This document shows, in pieces, positions 40,149 to 55,179 of a DNA stretch of 64,000 nucleotides. The translations under genes and the position numbers were made by a program. Every line of letters begins with the position of its first letter. Positions within the stretch are counted from its first letter, which is position 1. Under the pieces are notes generated by a model. The model saw only the letters and a program-made list of their open reading frames with translations, ran no database searches and was not told the origin of the DNA. The stretch is from Klenkia brasiliensis (GTDB lineage Bacteria; Actinomycetota; Actinomycetes; Mycobacteriales; Geodermatophilaceae), in assembly GCF_900100695.1 (NCBI RefSeq), contig NZ_FNCF01000003.1, forward strand, positions 434,001 to 498,000, given 5' to 3'.

Positions 40149-40733
40149 TCAGCTGGTCTTCTTCGCCTTCGCAGCGGCCTTGGCGTCCTGCTTGAAGGCC
40201 CGCACCTCGGCCAGGCTGGTGGGGTCGACGACGTCGGCGACCGAGCGGCGGGCGCCGTCGGTGCCGTAGTCACCGGCCGCCTCCCGCCAGCCGGACGGCG
40301 TCACGCCGTACTGCTTGCCGAGCAGGGCGACGAGGATCTTCGCCTTCTGCGCACCGAAGCCGGGCAGCTCCCCGACCCGCCTCAGCAGCGTCGCGCCGTC
40401 GGGGACGTCGGCCCAGAGGTTCTCCGCGCGGCCCTCGTAGCGCTCGACCAGCAGCCGGCACACCGCCTGGGTGCGCTCGGCCATGGAGCCCGGGTAGCGG
40501 TGCACCGCCGGCGGCCCGGCGAAGACGGCCTTGAGCGCGTCGGGGTCGGCGTCGGCGATGGCCGCCGCCGACAGGGTGTCCGTGCCGAGCCGCTGCGCCA
40601 GCAGCGCGGGCCCGGCGAACGCCCGCTCCATGGGGAACTGCTGGTCCAGCAGCATCCCGATCAGCAGGGCGAGCGGGTCGCGGCCGAGCAGGTCGTCGGC
40701 GGCCGGTTCCTGGGCGATCCGGATGGTCGGCAC
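40149..40733 (-). CDS. HhH-GPD-type base-excision repair protein
   Basis: A 194-residue DNA glycosylase-like protein: an N-terminal helix bundle (DPLALLIGMLLDQQFPMERAFAG), a helix-hairpin-helix (VGELPGFGAQKAKILVALLG) and a basic tail (KQDAKAAAKAKKTS). The catalytic residue is not obvious, and the substrate lesion is unknown. The start is set at the GTG at 40733, not the ATG further up, because a CAGACT box lies six bases before it. The same box and spacing recur in a truncated copy at 47.2 kb. The gene forms the left border of the putative island. Confidence 0.87.
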   Translation of the reverse strand: MPTIRIAQEPAADDLLGRDPLALLIGMLLDQQFPMERAFAGPALLAQRLGTDTLSAAAIADADPDALKAVFAGPPAVHRYPGSMAERTQAVCRLLVERYEGRAENLWADVPDGATLLRRVGELPGFGAQKAKILVALLGKQYGVTPSGWREAAGDYGTDGARRSVADVVDPTSLAEVRAFKQDAKAAAKAKKTS

Positions 40734-41199
40734 GCCGGCAGTCTGCACCATGCCCACGGGCAGCACTGGCGATCATCGACGTCGCCAGCTGCCACCTCGG
40801 CGAGTCCTTCACCGTGCATCAGCCTCGACGCCTCGATCAGGTCGCCCCAACCGAGCGGTGTCGAACCCGGGCGATGACCTGACCGCCGCGCACCGGGAGG
40901 TCCAGGCCCACGGGGCCGTGGGGGAACGCGCCATGGAAGCGTCCTGGCCGACCAGCCAGGCTCGCCGTTGGCCCAACTGCTGCGGGTCGCTGACCACACC
41001 ACCGCGACTCGGAGCTGGGCAAGCCCCGCTCGATCGTGCATGACGCCAGGCGCGTCGCCGGGCTACCGGGTGGTCGCGATCCCGGTCTGCGTTCCGGGCC
41101 GGGTTACCGCTGGGCCGGGAGGCCACCGGACTGGCTGGGAACGATGCGGCCTCCGCGGGGCGGTCCTGGGTGTTGCAAGACCGCCCGCGTCCTGGGGCC
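40734..41199. other. 466-base gap, left end of the island; possible transposase debris
   Basis: No intact gene. A plus-strand stretch around 40860-40960 translates as DDLTAAHREVQAHGAVGERA, reminiscent of the C-terminal part of IS5-type transposases, but it is short and breaks into other frames, so it would be a remnant at most. The sequence is noticeably less GC-biased than the core genes nearby. Confidence 0.3.
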
Positions 41200-41211
41200 T
41201 CAGCCCCAGGA
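41190..41211 (-). terminator. Hairpin enclosing the stop codon of the island operon
   Basis: On the minus strand TCCTGGGGC-TGAG-GCCCCAGGA forms a perfect 9-base stem, and its four-base loop holds the TGA stop of the DNRLRE-like gene. It is the only strong hairpin at the end of the four-gene operon. Confidence 0.5.
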
Positions 41212-41850
41212 GAGGACCAGCTGGGGTGGGTTGGACCCTTCGCGACTGCTGTAGGTCTGCAGGTCGTTGCCGGTGGTCTCGTCGGCGTCCGCGATCTCGA
41301 TGCCGCCGTTGCCCTCGGCGTACAGCCCGGTGACGATGCTCTGCACCGGCCACGTCTGCCAGCCCGGGCTGGCAGGGGTCGAGGTCGTCGCGGCCCCGGT
41401 CGCGGTCGTCGTGGGCTGGGTGGACCAGGTCACCGCGGTCTCGCTCCAGGACGTCGTCGTCAACACGCGGCGGGCCACGATGCTGCGCACTGAGTCGTTG
41501 CTGGACAGGTAGAGGCGCAGGCTGACGCCGCTGAGGGTGCAGCCCGCGGGGATCGTGGGCAGGGCGAACCGGACCAGGGAGCGGTTGAGCCCACCGTTGC
41601 CGGACCGGACCAGCAGCGTGGTCGTGGTGCCGTAGTTGGCGTTGGCCGGGGATTCACGGATGGTGGCGTCCTCCGAGGCCGTGACCGTCACGGTGGTCGG
41701 GTTGACGCACCAGGTCCCGGAACCGACCTGGTCGGCGGTGTTCGTCGTGCTGGCGGTGAAGGCCGCGGTCGAGGTGACCTGGGTGAGCGCCACGGTCCCG
41801 GCCGCCGCCAGGACGAGGACGGCCGCCCGCACCCAGGTGGGGCGGCTCAC
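41200..41850 (-). CDS. Secreted DNRLRE-like protein with SipW-cognate-type signal
   Basis: A 216-residue exported beta-sheet protein. The N terminus has a hydrophobic helix (AAVLVLAAAGTVALTQV) followed by AAFTASTTNTADQVGSG, closely like the exported protein at 44.0-44.6 kb; this pattern marks proteins cut by SipW-type peptidases. The rest resembles the DNRLRE/CBM96 domain (ATIRESPANANYGTTTTLLV, RSLVRFALPTIPAGCTLSGV, then SWSETAVTWSTQP and GNDLQTYSSREGSNPPQLVL). DNRLRE domains occur in surface and matrix proteins. GTG overlaps the diguanylate cyclase stop (GTGA), so its synthesis is coupled to that enzyme. Confidence 0.82.
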   Translation of the reverse strand: MSRPTWVRAAVLVLAAAGTVALTQVTSTAAFTASTTNTADQVGSGTWCVNPTTVTVTASEDATIRESPANANYGTTTTLLVRSGNGGLNRSLVRFALPTIPAGCTLSGVSLRLYLSSNDSVRSIVARRVLTTTSWSETAVTWSTQPTTTATGAATTSTPASPGWQTWPVQSIVTGLYAEGNGGIEIADADETTGNDLQTYSSREGSNPPQLVLSWG

Positions 41851-43283
41851 CGGGTCGCCACCGCACCGGCCGCGCCGGACCGCTGCGCCCGTCGTCCGCG
41901 CTTGACCTCGTACATCGCCTCGTCGGAGGCCCGGAGGACCGCCTCGAGGTCCTCGCCGGCGGTCGAGGTCGCGGTCCCGATGCTGATACCCACCCGCGCC
42001 GTACCACCGGGCAGGAGCACGGGCCGGCCGACCACCAACTCCACCTGCCGAGCCACCGTCGCCAGCTCGAGCGGGTCCGCCGAGGGCAGGAGGAGGACGA
42101 ACTCGTCGCCGCCGAAACGGGCCAGCGCCGAGCCCTCCGGCCGGGAGGCCTCCAGCCGGGCGGCTATCCGCTGCAGGAGCAGGTCGCCCGCGGCGTGGCC
42201 GTGCAGGTCGTTGACCGCCTTGAAGCCGTCGAGGTCGCAGAACAGCATCCCGACCGGGCGGGGCATCCCTGCGGCCAGGTCGATGAGCCCGCGCCGGTTC
42301 AGCAGCCCGGTCAGCGGGTCGTGCTCGGCCTGCTGGTGCATGGCGGCGCTGAGCCGGCGGAGGTCAGTGACGAGCGTGGCGTACTCCAGGGTCACCCGGC
42401 TCTGTGCGACCAGGAGCTCCAGCGCCTCCACCACGCGGTCATCGCGCCGGCCCTCGGGCACGGTCACCCGCAGCGTGTGGAGGTCGTCGCCCTCGCCGTG
42501 CAGCTGCCAGCGGACGTCGTCCGGCCGGCGCCGGGCATCGCCGTCACCGGCCACGACCCGGCCGTCCGCGCTGACGACCCACGCGGACCGGGCACCGACG
42601 CGCATCGCCGCCGTTACCAGACCGGTCAGGACGTCGTGGACGTCCGGGCGCACGAGGTCGGCGCCCGCGGCCACCACGCTCGCGAGGAGCTCCGAACGGT
42701 CGTCGGCGTCGGCACCCGCGGCGCGGGACCGGACGACCTCGGCGACGAGGTGCTCGCCGAGCAGACCCAGGGGCAGGGCTCCCAGCAGCAGGAGGGGCAG
42801 CGTGACGACCAGGGCCTGGAGCGCGGCGACGTCCAGCGACCCCGGGGTGAGGAACTGCGCAACGACGAGCGCGGTGGTGCAGCCGACCCAGGTGACGGCC
42901 AGGCCGCTGAGGCCGGCCAGCACGGCTGCCTCCAGGAGGGGCAGCAGCACCAGGACGACGGCCAGCGACCGGGGAGGCGGTCCCGCGACCCAGACGACAC
43001 CCACGACCACGACGGCGTCGACCGCGACGCCGAGCAGCGCCGAACGCACGCGGTGGCCGGGCCGCCGGAGCCGACGCACCGACACGCGGTCGCCGGCGAC
43101 CAGGACCGCCGCCCCGAGGCCGAGCAGGGCCAGGGCGAGCGGCCGCTCGACGGTCGAGGAGGGGCCTGGTTCGTAGGCCGCGGCGAGGACGCAGAGGCCG
43201 ACGACGGCGACGAGCCGCACCTGGGAGAAGGCGCGAGCGGCGACCGTCCTCCCCAGCTGCCGCCGGGAACCGTCGTTGATCAT
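41847..43283 (-). CDS. Membrane diguanylate cyclase (GGDEF)
   Basis: A 478-residue protein making c-di-GMP. About six N-terminal helices (residues 20-185, for example LALALLGLGAAVLVAG and AVVLVLLPLLEAAVLAGLSGLAV) precede a GAF-like segment and a GGDEF domain. The active site RFGGDEFVLLLP near residue 390, FCDLDGFKAVND and GISIGTA are intact. The inhibitory RxxD motif five residues upstream is absent (Ser at the Asp position), so product inhibition may be weak. It overlaps the signal peptidase stop (ATGA) and the DNRLRE start (GTGA). Its place inside an exported-protein operon is unusual. Confidence 0.9.
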   Translation of the reverse strand: MINDGSRRQLGRTVAARAFSQVRLVAVVGLCVLAAAYEPGPSSTVERPLALALLGLGAAVLVAGDRVSVRRLRRPGHRVRSALLGVAVDAVVVVGVVWVAGPPPRSLAVVLVLLPLLEAAVLAGLSGLAVTWVGCTTALVVAQFLTPGSLDVAALQALVVTLPLLLLGALPLGLLGEHLVAEVVRSRAAGADADDRSELLASVVAAGADLVRPDVHDVLTGLVTAAMRVGARSAWVVSADGRVVAGDGDARRRPDDVRWQLHGEGDDLHTLRVTVPEGRRDDRVVEALELLVAQSRVTLEYATLVTDLRRLSAAMHQQAEHDPLTGLLNRRGLIDLAAGMPRPVGMLFCDLDGFKAVNDLHGHAAGDLLLQRIAARLEASRPEGSALARFGGDEFVLLLPSADPLELATVARQVELVVGRPVLLPGGTARVGISIGTATSTAGEDLEAVLRASDEAMYEVKRGRRAQRSGAAGAVATR

Positions 43284-43990
43284 GTCAAGCCTTCCGGGGT
43301 GGTGGTGGCGGCGCGTGCGGCATCCAGCCGGCGTGCCAGGTCAACGGTGAGGGCGGCGGGGACGAGGGAACCACCGGCCGACGTGGAGGTACGGGTGCGG
43401 CCGGCGAGCAGGATCTCGCCGGGCAGTCGGTGGTCCTGGCGGTTCCAGGGGTCGAGCTCGGGGTCGTTCGCCTTCGGCGCCAGCCACACCGTCGTGACGA
43501 GGAGAGCGGCAGCCAGCGCCAGGGAGGTCGTGTCACCCCGCTCGACCCACAGCGACGGCAACCCGATGAAGGGCACCTCCAGGACGGCGGCCCCTCGGAC
43601 CTGGTCCGGCCGGACGGGGGCAGCGTCAGGTGCGGGGTTCGCGTCCCCCTGGACGACGTAGGTGCCGTCGTCCTGCACGGCGACGACGCGGTGCAGGACC
43701 CTCCCGGTCCCGGGCAGGTCGTAGAGCACGACGGTGCCGACGTCCAGCCCGGCGGTGCCGGCGTCGCGGAGGACGACGACGTCCCCCGGTGACACGACCG
43801 GCTCCATCGAGCCGCTGGTGACCAGGGTGGGGTGCCACCCCAGGACCAGGGTCGGCAGGACGATCCAGGTGGCCAGACCGAGAGCGACGGTCAGCAGCAG
43901 GCTGCTCACCGTCCCGGCCACGAAGGCGGTCGTGCGCACCCAACTGCGTGACGGCGCCCCGGTCCGGCTCAGGCCGAACGCGTTTCCCAC
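43280..43990 (-). CDS. ER-type (SipW-like) signal peptidase I
   Basis: A 236-residue S26B-type peptidase. An N-terminal helix (TVSSLLLTVALGLATWIVLP) is followed by the catalytic Ser in TSGSMEPVVSPGDVVVL, a His instead of Lys in GRVLHRVVAV, and QGDANPAPD, which together mark the Ser-His ER type. A second helix (LALAAALLVTTVWLAP) lies near 165. The GTG at 43990 overlaps the exported-protein gene by 22 bases; another GTG at 43939 is possible. It presumably processes the two flanking exported proteins, as SipW does TasA in Bacillus. Confidence 0.88.
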   Translation of the reverse strand: MGNAFGLSRTGAPSRSWVRTTAFVAGTVSSLLLTVALGLATWIVLPTLVLGWHPTLVTSGSMEPVVSPGDVVVLRDAGTAGLDVGTVVLYDLPGTGRVLHRVVAVQDDGTYVVQGDANPAPDAAPVRPDQVRGAAVLEVPFIGLPSLWVERGDTTSLALAAALLVTTVWLAPKANDPELDPWNRQDHRLPGEILLAGRTRTSTSAGGSLVPAALTVDLARRLDAARAATTTPEGLT

Positions 43991-44586
43991 GTGAAGCCGA
44001 AGTTGGTGGTCCTGTTCTGCGCGTTCTGGTCGTTGGCGACCGAGACGGTGAACCGGAAGGTGCGCGTCTCCCCGCTGGCGGCGGGGTCCCAGGTCGAGAT
44101 GCCGGTCGCGTAGGAGTTCTTGCTGGACTGGAAGGCCGCGATGGTCCCGGTGTAGAGGGTCGAGGTGGCGCTGAAGCTGCTGCAGTTGCCGAACGCATCG
44201 GCGGTGTCGGGACCCACCTCGACGGTGAGGTTGAAGTAGGTGCCGGCATCGCCCGTGACGCCGGCCGAGTACAGGTAGACAGGCCCGGGGTTCACCGTGC
44301 CGGTGTAGGTGACGTCGATGCACCGGGACAGGTTGTTGCCGGGGGTCAACGGACCCTCGCTGGCGAACATCGCCGACCCGGAGTCGTTGTCGCTGAGCGC
44401 CACCCCGCCGCTGGTGACCGTGTCGGCGGTGTTGTCGGTCGTGGCGACGAATGCGGCGTAGCTGCTTGACGCGACGAGGAGCGCGACCAGCAGGAAGGTC
44501 AGGGCGACGGCCGCGAGCTGGATCGTCAGGCCGTTCAGCGATCGTCGACGACCGCTTCTTGGCGCCGCGTTCGAAGGTTTAGTCAT
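43969..44586 (-). CDS. TasA/SipW-cognate-type exported surface protein
   Basis: A 205-residue exported protein. A basic start (RSGRRRSLNG) and a long hydrophobic helix (LAAVALTFLLVALLVASSSY) lead to AAFVATTDNTADTVTSGG, the SipW-cognate processing pattern shared with the DNRLRE protein. The mature part is a beta-rich domain (VTYTGTVNPGPVYLYSAGV, ETRTFRFTVSVANDQNAQNR) like TasA/CalY or the alternate-signal exported proteins of actinobacteria. The ATG at 44586 is chosen because a GACGAT box lies six bases upstream; a GTG at 44634 would run across the conserved 44630-44649 element. It heads the operon and may form fibres; that is inference. Confidence 0.8.
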   Translation of the reverse strand: MTKPSNAAPRSGRRRSLNGLTIQLAAVALTFLLVALLVASSSYAAFVATTDNTADTVTSGGVALSDNDSGSAMFASEGPLTPGNNLSRCIDVTYTGTVNPGPVYLYSAGVTGDAGTYFNLTVEVGPDTADAFGNCSSFSATSTLYTGTIAAFQSSKNSYATGISTWDPAASGETRTFRFTVSVANDQNAQNRTTNFGFTWETRSA

Positions 44587-44629
44587 ACCAAGATCGTCGG
44601 CACGGCTGCCCGCCCGTGAAGCACCGTCC

Positions 44630-44649
44630 GACACCCCTCACCCTTCGTG
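44630..44649. promoter_or_regulatory. 20-base element shared with the multicopper oxidase promoter
   Basis: GACACCCCTCACCCTTCGTG in the divergent gap between the exported-protein operon and the GGDEF-EAL gene matches 52362-52381 at 19 of 20 positions. Within it and just beyond, TCACC (44638-44642) and GGTGA (44652-44656) form a symmetric pair. It ends about 45 bases before the ATG at 44586, where an activator or repressor could act on either gene. Confidence 0.55.
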
Positions 44650-44765
44650 GTGGTGATGCGGCTCACCGTCGGATCGACACACTGTCGTTCTGGCCGGTCA
44701 TCCCATGGGGTCATCGAGCCGTGGGCTGATCTGCAGGTCCACCGGAGGGGGTCGATGCCTCATCC

Positions 44766-47063
44766 ATGACCTCTGTTCGGCGATTGGTGCACGGACCCCG
44801 ACGTCGGGGGTGGAGCTGGCCGTCGACCCTCGTCCTCGGGCTCGTCTACTGCGCCGCGATCACCTGGCGGCCGACCGGCCCTGTCTGGGACCTCGTCGTG
44901 GACATCGCCCTCTACAACTCCGTCCTCGTGGTCGGGGTGGCCGCAGCGCTGGCAGCAGCACGCCGGTCCCCCCGGGAGCGGACGGCCTGGCTGGGGGTGG
45001 CCTGGTACCTCGGGCTGACGGCGGTGGCGAACGGCACGTGGTCGGTCCTGGACGCCACCGGCCACGGAGACGGGCCCTCCATCGCCGACGTGTTCTACCT
45101 CGCCGGCTACGTCGGGCTGTACGTGGCCCTCATCGTGCTGATCCGGGTGCGGGTGCCCAGGTTCCACCCCAGCATGTGGCTCGACGGGCTCATCGGCGGC
45201 CTGGGCGGGGCGGCTGTCGCCGTGGCCCTCGTGCTCACACCGTGGCTGGAGCACCTCGCCCCCGACACCGCCACCGCTGTCATCACCCTCGCCTACCCGG
45301 TGGTCGACGTCGTCCTCATCGCGGTGCTGATCGGCGTGGCCGCCGTCCTCGGCGTCAACCGCGACTCCACCCTGGCGGCCGTCGGCGCCGGGCTGGTCGC
45401 CAACCTCGCCGCCGACATCGCCTTCCTGCAGCAGACGAATGCCGGGACCTACGTGGAGGGCAGCGTCGTCGACGTGGGATGGCTGGTCGCGGCCGCCGGG
45501 CTCACCTGGGCGGCCACCCGCGCCCCGGCCGACGCGGTCGACCGGGCCGCCGATGCCCACACGCGGGTCGGGTGGCGCCTGCTGGTGCTCCCCCTCACCT
45601 GCAACGCGGCCTCACTCGCACTCCTGGGCGCCGGCTGGGGAGAGCGCTTCCCGCCCCTGGCCGCCTGGTTCGCCATCGCCTGCGTCCTCGCCGGGCTGTG
45701 CCGCACAGCCGTCACGTTCCACGAGGTCCGCAGCTTCCACGAGATACGCGAGCAGGCGGTCACCGACGAGCTGACCGGCCTGAGCAACCGTCGCGCACTG
45801 CTCGAGGGCGCTGAGCGGGTCGTCGGCCGCGCCACGGCCGCGCGCCCGGCAGCCCTGCTGCTCCTCGACCTCGACCGCTTCAAGGAGGTCAACGACGGGC
45901 TGGGCCACGCTGCAGGCGACGAACTGCTCCGCATCCTCGCCCGCCGGCTCCAGGAGGTGACCCGCCCCCGGGACCTGCTGGCCCGCCTCGGCGGCGACGA
46001 GTTCGCCGTCGTGCTGCCCGACACCGACGTCGAGACCGCCCGGGCCGTGGCCGAGGGCCTTCGCGACGCCATGGCCCGGGGGGTGACCCTCGACGGGATG
46101 CGAGTGCACGTCGGCGTGAGCATCGGCGTCGCCAGCTGCCCCGTCCCGGCCGACTCGGTGACCGAGCTGCTGCGCTGCGCAGACATCGCCATGTACGGCG
46201 CCAAGCGGGCCCGGGGTGGGGTGAGAATCTACGTGCCCGACCCCGCCGTCGGACCGATGGACGAACTGCAGTCGATGGACGAGTTGCGGACCGCTCTGGA
46301 CGACGACCAGCTCGACGTGCACGTCCAGCCCCAGGTCGACGCGACCACCGGCGCTGTGCTCGGCGCCGAAGCGCTGCTGCGATGGCACCACCCCGACCGC
46401 GGCATCCTGCCGCCCGCCGCCATCCTGCGCAGCGCCGAGCGCGCCGGCCACCTCGGCGCCGTCGCCGAGCGGGTGCTCGACCGCGGCCTGGCCGCCGCCG
46501 CGACCTGGTGGACGACGCACGAGGTGCCCGTCTCGATCAACCTGGCCGCGGTCGACGTCGTCGACCCGTCGCTGCCCGGCCGGGTTGTCTCGGCCCTGCA
46601 CCGCCACGACCTGCCGCCCCGTGCACTGACCATCGAGGTGGTCGAGGACAGCCTGGTTGCCGATGTCGGAGCGGCCCGCGCGCTGCTCGGGGACCTGCGC
46701 GCCCTCGGCGTACGTGTGTCCATCGACGACTACGGGACCGGGTTCAGCTCGCTGGCCTACCTCACCCGCCTGCCCGCAGACGAGCTCAAGCTCGACCAGT
46801 CCCTCATCACCGGCATCGTCGAGGACCGCGCCACCCATGCCGTCGTCCGCCACACCGTGGCCCTCGCCCACGACCTGGGGCTGCATCTCGTCGCGGAGGG
46901 GGTCGAGGACACCGGAACGGCACGCGTCCTGGCAGACCTCGGCTGCGACCGCATCCAGGGCTGGGTCGTCGCCGAACCGATGCCCCCGGCGGAGTTCTGC
47001 GCCTGGCTTGCAGATCGCGGCCAGCTGGCGGCTCTCGACCGGGCGGTCGCCGAGCCCGGGTGA
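44766..47063 (+). CDS. Membrane GGDEF-EAL dual-domain c-di-GMP enzyme
   Basis: A 765-residue protein with eight to ten N-terminal helices (up to about 315), a GGDEF domain (LLDLDRFKEVNDGLGHAAGD, ARLGGDEFAVVLP) and an EAL domain (GAEALLRWHHP, IEVVEDSLV, IDDYGTGFSSLAYL, LKLDQSLI, AEGVED, IQGWVVAEPMP). Both active sites and the RxxD inhibitory site (RPRD) look intact, so it could make or degrade c-di-GMP. A four-codon ORF at 44755-44769 (MPHP) with a strong GGAGGGGG site overlaps its ATG (ATGA), probably giving coupled initiation. It is divergent from the exported-protein operon. Confidence 0.9.
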   Translation: MTSVRRLVHGPRRRGWSWPSTLVLGLVYCAAITWRPTGPVWDLVVDIALYNSVLVVGVAAALAAARRSPRERTAWLGVAWYLGLTAVANGTWSVLDATGHGDGPSIADVFYLAGYVGLYVALIVLIRVRVPRFHPSMWLDGLIGGLGGAAVAVALVLTPWLEHLAPDTATAVITLAYPVVDVVLIAVLIGVAAVLGVNRDSTLAAVGAGLVANLAADIAFLQQTNAGTYVEGSVVDVGWLVAAAGLTWAATRAPADAVDRAADAHTRVGWRLLVLPLTCNAASLALLGAGWGERFPPLAAWFAIACVLAGLCRTAVTFHEVRSFHEIREQAVTDELTGLSNRRALLEGAERVVGRATAARPAALLLLDLDRFKEVNDGLGHAAGDELLRILARRLQEVTRPRDLLARLGGDEFAVVLPDTDVETARAVAEGLRDAMARGVTLDGMRVHVGVSIGVASCPVPADSVTELLRCADIAMYGAKRARGGVRIYVPDPAVGPMDELQSMDELRTALDDDQLDVHVQPQVDATTGAVLGAEALLRWHHPDRGILPPAAILRSAERAGHLGAVAERVLDRGLAAAATWWTTHEVPVSINLAAVDVVDPSLPGRVVSALHRHDLPPRALTIEVVEDSLVADVGAARALLGDLRALGVRVSIDDYGTGFSSLAYLTRLPADELKLDQSLITGIVEDRATHAVVRHTVALAHDLGLHLVAEGVEDTGTARVLADLGCDRIQGWVVAEPMPPAEFCAWLADRGQLAALDRAVAEPG

Positions 47064-47197
47064 CCTCGCCTGAGCCAGGACGGTGCCGAGCTCCGACTCA
47101 GCCATGCAGCTCCGGGGTCAGCCGACGTCGAGACGCGGTCGAGACGGTCCCGGCCCTTCGTCCAGCCGGACTGTCCACAGCTTCCTCTTGACACGTG

Positions 47198-47290
47198 CTG
47201 GTCCAGGAGCATGCCGAGCAGCAGGGCGAGCGGGTCGCGGCCGAGCAGGTCCTCGGCGGCGGGGTCCTGGGCGATCCGGATGGTCGGCAC
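47198..47290 (-). pseudogene. Truncated 5' copy of the HhH-GPD repair gene
   Basis: Reads as a GTG start and 31 codons (PTIRIAQDPAAEDLLGRDPL, then ALLLGMLLDQ) that match the N terminus of the intact gene at 40149-40733. About 87 of 93 bases agree, after which similarity stops abruptly. The CAGACT box six bases before the start is also preserved, but the sequence upstream of that box differs from the intact locus. It marks the right junction of the island. Confidence 0.85.
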
Positions 47291-47468
47291 GGCCGAAGTC
47301 TGCCCCAGCCGGACGTCCGGACCAGGAGCCTGGACGCGGCCGCGGGTGACAGGTCCGACCCGGCGGCCTGCGCGAGGGGATCGTCGTGCTCCGCCGGCAG
47401 CTGCTCGGCCATGACCCCCGGCCGCCTCGCTGCGCCGCGGAACCAGATGTGACCGATGTTCACACGAA

Positions 47469-54083: not shown

Positions 54084-54679
54084 CCGCCGTCCTGCCGGTC
54101 GCCCCCGGGCAGCGCCGCAGCGCGCGCGTCGAGCGCGCACCCGTCGCCACGCGGTGGCGGTTCGTCGCCGCGGCGGCGACCGGCGGCGCCGGCGTGCTGC
54201 ACGGCGTGGCGGCGGCCCAGCACCTCGGCGAGGCCCCCACCCTGACGGCGGGCTTCGTGCTGACCGCGGCGGTGCAGCTGGGGATGGCCGGGTGGCTGCT
54301 GCTGGGCCGCCGGGGCTCCGGGTGGGACAGCCGCACGGTGCAGCTGGCCCTGTGGGCCACCGTCGGGTTCCTGCTGGTCCTGCTCGTCGGGCACACCACC
54401 GACTGGCTGACCCCCCTGCACGGCACGGCGGCCGGGCACGGCGGGCACGCCACCGGCCACGCGGTCCAGACCGCCGGCGCGGTCGCGCTGGGCCTGGACG
54501 CCCCGGTCGAGGTGGAACCGCTGGGCGCGCTCGGCACGACCACCGGGGCGCTCGAGGTGCTGGCCGTCCTCGGCCTCGCCGCCCTGCTGCCGGCCGCGAC
54601 CCGGCGCCGGACGACGACCGGGCTGCTCGTGCTGGGACTGGCGGCGTGGACGGCGTGGGCCACCGGCGTCCTCGGCTGA
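54080..54679 (+). CDS. Histidine-rich membrane protein coupled to the oxidase
   Basis: A 199-residue protein of unknown function with about five hydrophobic segments ([68 protein letters not shown]). His residues are concentrated near the membrane: LHGVAAAQHLGE, VGHTTDWLTPLHG, HGGHATGHAVQ. This suggests metal, possibly copper, handling for the oxidase, but no known copper-transporter motif is present. The GTG overlaps the oxidase stop by four bases, so the two are translated together. Confidence 0.8.
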   Translation: MTAVLPVAPGQRRSARVERAPVATRWRFVAAAATGGAGVLHGVAAAQHLGEAPTLTAGFVLTAAVQLGMAGWLLLGRRGSGWDSRTVQLALWATVGFLLVLLVGHTTDWLTPLHGTAAGHGGHATGHAVQTAGAVALGLDAPVEVEPLGALGTTTGALEVLAVLGLAALLPAATRRRTTTGLLVLGLAAWTAWATGVLG

Positions 54680-55179
54680 GCACCTGTGGCACCGCCCTGG
54701 CCGTCACCGCCCTGCTGGTGGTGACGGCCTCGGTGCTGGGCGTGCTGCCCCTCCAGCCGGTGCGCACCGGCTCGGGCAGCATGGCGCCGGCCGCCCCGAC
54801 CGGCGCGCTGCTGCTGGTGCAGCACGGCGCCGGCCAGGTCGGCCGGCGCGACGTGGTGACGGTGTCGGCCGACGTCACCGGGGAGCCCCTGGTCAAGCGG
54901 GTCGTGGCGGTCGGCGGTGACGAGGTCGCCATCGAGGACGGCGTGCTGGTGGTCGACGGCCGGCCGGTGTGCGAGCGCGATGTCGACCCCGACCGCCTGG
55001 ACGGCGTGTGGTTCGGGCCGGTCCGGGTGCCCGCGGGCTCGGTCTTCCTGCTCGGCGACGACCGGGCCGGCTCGGTCGACTCGCGCGTGTTCGGCGCCGT
55101 CCCGGTGGCCGCCCTGACCGGCCGGGTCCTGCTCCGCCTCTGGCCCGCCCCGGCCGCCCTGGACGACGGCCTGTGCTGA
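54655..55179 (+). CDS. P-type (bacterial) signal peptidase I
   Basis: A 174-residue S26A peptidase: a short basic N terminus and one helix ([18 protein letters not shown]), catalytic Ser in [16 protein letters not shown], the general-base Lys in [13 protein letters not shown], and the C-terminal [14 protein letters not shown] box. It therefore differs in mechanism from the Ser-His enzyme in the island. The start is uncertain: GTG at 54655, GTG at 54646, or a CTG at 54676 overlapping the previous stop. It probably serves the secreted protein next downstream. Most bacteria have one housekeeping LepB elsewhere; this looks dedicated. Confidence 0.85.

Follow-up and report, generated by a model that had tools for sequence, protein, structure and literature searches.

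A conserved operon type joins a TasA-like protein, a SipW/SEC11-type signal peptidase and a predicted diguanylate cyclase in Geodermatophilaceae

We analyzed a stretch of 64,000 nucleotides (nt) from Klenkia brasiliensis (Geodermatophilaceae; NZ_FNCF01000003.1, 434,001-498,000), hereafter the window, to whose positions all coordinates refer. Four overlapping minus-strand genes in it encode a TasA-like exported protein (TAS), a signal peptidase of the endoplasmic reticulum (ER) type (PEP), a GGDEF protein (DGC) and a DNRLRE/CBM96 exported protein (DNRLRE), and a membrane GGDEF-EAL protein is encoded divergently (Table 1). TAS and PEP overlap by 22 nt, PEP and DGC by 4 nt (ATGA), and DGC and DNRLRE by 4 nt (GTGA); 179 nt separate the TAS start from the divergent gene. 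An alternative TAS start is possible at a GTG at 44634, and the 'MGN' start of PEP is conserved in its relatives.

Judged by family models and conserved residues, PEP is an ER-type (SipW/SEC11-type, S26B) signal peptidase. It scores 73.1 bits against TIGR02228 (cut-off 51.85), and a PDB search with its profile recovers SEC11C (E 1.4e-9). The match to the Pfam S26 model (17.5 bits) lies below the cut-off of 22.9, and the Bacillus SipW equivalog NF046067, at 42 bits, does not reach its cut-off of 190. Ser-61, His-100 and Asp-116, which we take to be the catalytic residues, are invariant in sets of 13 and of 4 sequences. DGC carries a GGDEF domain (PF00990, 106.7 bits) with an intact RFGGDEF motif, by which it should be a diguanylate cyclase, producing cyclic di-GMP (c-di-GMP). 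DGC also has six predicted membrane helices, at low confidence, and a GAF-like region; its structural model has a predicted local distance difference test (pLDDT) score of 67.7. DNRLRE matches NF033679 (90.4 bits) and CBM96 (PF24517, 112.2 bits) over cut-off, and the GGDEF-EAL protein scores 142.5 bits for GGDEF and 218.9 bits for EAL. The gene layout proposed in an earlier sequence-only reading was thus confirmed in coordinates and strands, as were its Ser-His signal peptidase, its diguanylate cyclase and its DNRLRE-like exported protein.

That reading had also called TAS TasA-like and had put forward structure prediction as a check. The predicted fold and the gene context favour this, whereas the family models are silent. 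Searches of TAS against Pfam and NCBIfam (the latter up to E 10) gave no hit, and the TasA model NF046066 leaves it unmatched while weakly matching 2 of 14 TAS relatives (best E 0.0052). A PDB sequence search with a TAS profile returned weak phage coat and other matches only (best E 0.13). In a structure comparison of the predicted model, however, TasA was closest. At the N-termini of both TAS and DNRLRE, a hydrophobic stretch is followed by an AAFxAxTxNxA-like segment, which by eye has a SipW-type look; the SipW-dependent signal model TIGR04088 matched neither protein and matched one of the 14 TAS relatives (E 1.7e-4). Taken together, fold and gene context suggest that TAS is TasA-like, with no support from the sequence models.

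Table 1. Features of the window, and genes of related loci discussed in the text (aa, amino acids)
Feature	Position	Strand	Remark
TAS, TasA-like exported protein, 205 aa	43969..44586	-	ATG start; SipW-type signal by eye (..SSYAAFVATTDNTADTVTSG..)
PEP, ER-type (S26B) signal peptidase, 236 aa	43280..43990	-	GTG start; family models
DGC, GGDEF protein, 478 aa	41847..43283	-	PF00990; RFGGDEF
DNRLRE/CBM96 exported protein, 216 aa	41200..41850	-	NF033679, CBM96; SipW-type signal by eye (..TAAFTASTTNTADQVGSG..)
Membrane GGDEF-EAL protein	44766..47063	+	start may be 44787; divergent neighbour outside conserved unit
Degenerate flagellar-type promoter, TTCAC-N14-GCCGAC	44596..44620	-	9 nt before TAS ATG
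Repeat copy 1	40639..40750		5' part of intact HhH-GPD gene 40149-40766
Repeat copy 2	47196..47310		displaced HhH-GPD 5' end, stops at core GACCAGCA (att-like scar)
Anchored TasA-like gene directly before cyclase gene	L036, L038, L041, L044, L055, L113-L115, L121, L128, L131, L193, L196, L197
SipW-start exported protein gene with flagellar-type promoter	L036:12792, L041:4559, L044:12232, L114:12542, L115:12215, L115:13383, L125:8969, L184:6043

We refer to operons of the window's kind as type I. When 112 genomes of the family were searched with a profile built from four of their peptidases, eight had such a peptidase (346-431 bits; next match 122.7). These eight loci include the window, and one (L144) ends inside the peptidase, leaving seven uncut loci. 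The order TAS, PEP (22-nt overlap), DGC (4-nt overlap) holds in all seven. DNRLRE lies downstream in five (the window, L106, L141, L145/L103 and L146/L034), a second TAS gene is present in four (L141, L142, L143 and L146), and the divergent GGDEF-EAL gene accompanies the operon only in the window, one locus of eight. L103 is the same record as L145, from Modestobacter caceresii, and L034 the same as L146, from Blastococcus sp. CT_GayMR19; L034 and L103 were used in neighbour counts, and the duplicates were dropped from the promoter scan, the GGDEF tree and the peptidase-length count. Identity to the window across L034, L103 and L106 is 50-57% for TAS, 44-51% for PEP, 45-49% for DGC and 34-41% for DNRLRE. 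A C-terminal tail of PEP is likewise conserved among type I loci, which occupy three different chromosomal settings. TAS, PEP and DGC thus keep together in every uncut locus; with DNRLRE in five of seven and GGDEF-EAL in one of eight, we discarded the view that all five genes form a single conserved system. Our results show that a TasA-like protein, a SipW/SEC11-type peptidase and a diguanylate cyclase form a conserved operon type built of known parts. A search of a literature library, judged from titles and abstract openings, found no such gene arrangement.

Beyond the family, a TAS profile gave matches at E 0.001 in 52 of the 298 order-level genomes and at E 1e-8 in 38 of the 394 class-level ones. 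Order-level loci were taken down to a TAS E value of 2.4e-12, weaker matches being left out; the class-level loci omit five places (G418, G364, G326, G318 and G407), and 3 of the 40 have no called TAS gene (L198, L209 and L211). Across 88 TAS loci, GGDEF genes accounted for 27 of 529 genes at distances of one to three versus 2 of 856 further away (Fisher p 6e-10, computed on loci that are kin and not independent). A GGDEF gene lay within three genes of TAS in 20 of 51 loci in one set and 4 of 37 in the other, and in none of 26 peptidase loci without TAS.

In a second form, type II, a TAS-like gene precedes a cyclase of another kind. It comprises 15 loci and L198, assigned later, in 16 genomes from six families. 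In 14 of the 15, the TAS-like protein ends in a hydrophobic segment with a D..DPKL(A/S) tail; in 13, its gene overlaps that of the cyclase by 4 nt. In the remaining locus as to the tail, L184, none was found and the cyclase has no readable GG(D/E)EF. The L198 protein also has the tail; there the cyclase lies in two overlapping frames (L198:3611-5456), being either broken or affected by a sequence error, and gene calling recovered just the end of the anchored partner. In a tree of 63 GGDEF domains, all seven type I cyclases formed one clade (support 0.997), and the 15 type II cyclases grouped in another (support 0.614), whose 17 leaves also include L198 and one GGDEF protein of the window's genome. 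GGDEF-EAL proteins near TAS genes were scattered over the tree. Because the type I and type II cyclases occupy separate clades, SipW/TasA-type loci have probably recruited cyclases on at least two occasions. The RxxD inhibition site (I-site) is absent from all seven type I cyclases, that of the window included, and kept in every type II cyclase with a readable motif. The loss in type I can be read as fitting a feedback loop that is closed elsewhere.

The peptidases differ in length, 42 of the 76 TAS-linked ones reaching at least 340 aa. All four long peptidases tested end in a LamG-like domain behind an apparent internal SipW-type signal, and at least one (L036) has a proline-rich tail in place of LamG. 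A GGDEF gene is nearby in only 2 of 42 long-peptidase loci versus 15 of 34 short-peptidase loci (p 5e-5). In the window, the DNRLRE/CBM96 protein may take the position that LamG has in other loci. In L035, L037, L040, L043 and other TAS loci, the LamG-fused SipW-type peptidase joins an enzyme to its own apparent substrate.

Upstream of TAS, an alignment of the type I relatives revealed CTCAA-N16-NCCGA(T/C) in all seven, 9 nt before the start in six and 8 nt in one. Actinoplanes flagellar promoters have the form CTCA(A/C)..GCCGA, which guided our reading of this motif, and the relatives' sequence resembles flagellar (FliA/WhiG) promoters. For these, a -35 element TAAA and a -10 element GCCGATAA are given in PMC8325347. 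The window's genome encodes a FliA/WhiG sigma factor scoring over cut-off. As a control, CTCAA-N14..17-GCCGAT occurred 41 times in four genomes versus 16 times for the reversed pattern. Among 30 control places read, 7 were inside genes; genes next to others included fliD, three cheB, two flbD and one methyl-accepting chemotaxis protein gene, and Pfam confirmed 7 of 9 tested proteins of such flagellar and chemotaxis genes.

The strict form of the motif (..GCCGA) preceded 8 of 13 anchored type II TasA-like genes versus 6 of 93 other TAS genes. The corresponding counts were 3 of 8 for type I TAS genes, 1 of 84 for peptidase genes, 0 of 32 for GGDEF genes and 11 of 1278 for all others. Of those 11, 8 belong to the same loci and encode exported proteins whose start is of the SipW type (Table 1). 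Three of the 13 anchored genes (L115, L196 and L197) were classed by hand, their tails being found afterward, and the scan missed L145, whose start was called too far upstream; the corrected start fits the motif. The promoters of these further exported proteins suggest that the FliA/WhiG regulon takes in a wider SipW-type secretome. At the level of RNA, no riboswitch was found: no Rfam model reached its gathering score in the window, and six related loci gave a single tRNA.

The five genes lie between two copies (40639-40750 and 47196-47307) of a 112-nt direct repeat that share 91% identity. Displaced HhH-GPD 5' ends recur elsewhere, four in one contig of G007 and one in G004 (L170-L172 and L174 among the loci), and all of them break at GACCAGCA and continue into a near-identical element arm; a truncated HhH-GPD gene in G007 adjoins a large serine recombinase. 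The stretch between the HhH-GPD gene and the dtd and sigma genes varies in content within the genus, and the M14 peptidase gene to the right of the cluster was found in none of eight other genomes of the genus. Because of these displaced ends with a common break, the variable stretch and the M14 gene, the cluster is at an integration hot spot, and the operon is likely carried on a mobile island. No recombinase gene was seen between the window repeats. Among plasmid records, 18 matched part of the peptidase (best E 4e-21), but never over more than 80% of the query. The same variable stretch holds a second S26 signal peptidase gene (54646-55179; PF10502, 105 bits), two genes after a multicopper oxidase, before an Fn3 protein and near an animal-type haem peroxidase.

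We interpret the locus as a surface-fibre operon that was acquired and brings its own source of c-di-GMP, acting as a one-shot switch from motile to sessile life, and consider this interpretation evenly poised between right and wrong. It builds on the gene order and overlaps, the GGDEF and peptidase residues, the conservation, the fold likeness and the promoter motif of the relatives. TAS would leave the cell through Sec, be processed by its dedicated SipW/SEC11-type peptidase and assemble into TasA-like fibres. The peptidase would also process the DNRLRE/CBM96 protein, which probably serves as a matrix protein or carbohydrate-binding adhesin. The membrane cyclase would be made in step with the peptidase through overlapping translation and would raise c-di-GMP without product inhibition. 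The operon would be on in motile cells because the flagellar sigma factor FliA/WhiG would read it in the relatives. c-di-GMP would then arm the anti-sigma factor RsiG and remove WhiG, so that swimming ends and the operon limits itself. The RsiG-WhiG step is proposed for this family by analogy with PMC8325347, in which all 16 of 16 Geodermatophilaceae are reported to have a twin-motif RsiG. The window promoter, which would still have to work, keeps GCCGAC and the 9-nt distance; its -35 element is poor (TTCAC-N14), and it matches neither search pattern. In the window's own genome the control motif occurred 7 times versus 5 for the reversed pattern. The fullest version, a self-limiting switch on an island in which c-di-GMP removes its own sigma factor via RsiG and cyclases were recruited at least twice for the purpose, once with an anchored TasA-like sensor, is doubtful, although we entertain it.

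Alternatively, the membrane cyclase and the TasA-like protein might form one transmembrane sensor, with the state of the fibre setting c-di-GMP synthesis. In type II the TasA-like protein would be anchored by its C-terminal helix and DRRDPKLA-like tail, and the cytoplasmic tail of PEP may join. The 4-nt overlaps and anchored proteins of type II, the TasA-like/cyclase pairs without an adjacent peptidase in L196 and L197 and the conserved PEP tail of type I speak for such local sensing. Type I, however, has no anchored TasA-like protein, the two types have cyclases of different clades, and the interaction of the two proteins is argued from gene context; we consider this explanation unlikely. Slightly less probable still is that a cyclase of the general pool simply travels with a surface operon on the island. 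This would agree with the hot spot and the three chromosomal settings of type I but not with the two cyclase clades, the fixed order and overlaps or the sharp GGDEF enrichment at one to two genes. Direct coupling of c-di-GMP synthesis and export, as first proposed, with c-di-GMP acting on the peptidase or on the export of both substrates, draws on the overlaps and fixed order, but it went unsupported and is very improbable, as PEP matches signal-peptidase models only (Pfam, NCBIfam), a cyclase is missing beside the majority of homologous TAS-peptidase pairs, and the data speak in the first place for joint transcription under a flagellar-type sigma factor.

If the switch interpretation is true, it would join SipW/TasA-type fibres, c-di-GMP and WhiG/FliA, usually separate fields, in actinobacteria of soil and stone. 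In this small, defined operon the commitment of motile actinobacterial cells to attachment could be studied directly. It would also exemplify the repeated recruitment of a second-messenger enzyme to the same sort of surface operon.

Among known systems, the tapA-sipW-tasA operon of Bacillus subtilis likewise unites an exported fibre protein, to which the TAS fold is nearest, with a dedicated ER-type peptidase. In contrast, the window unit has no nameable tapA, contains a diguanylate cyclase and a DNRLRE/CBM96 protein, has a flagellar-type promoter in its relatives, and encodes a TAS without a TasA model match. Two archaeal filaments made of donor-strand subunits according to PMC9674648, the bundling pili 7ueg and the thread filaments 7pnb, ranked 5 and 8 in the TAS fold comparison. 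For Rubrobacter, PMC8325347 describes WhiG promoters at type IV pilus genes and at diguanylate cyclase and phosphodiesterase genes, with a dgc inside the pilus cluster. The filament there is a type IV pilus and here a SipW/TasA-type protein, and the RsiG step is drawn here by analogy; common to the two systems are flagellar-type promoters, here those of the relatives, before surface-filament and c-di-GMP enzyme genes, and a cyclase gene within the filament cluster.
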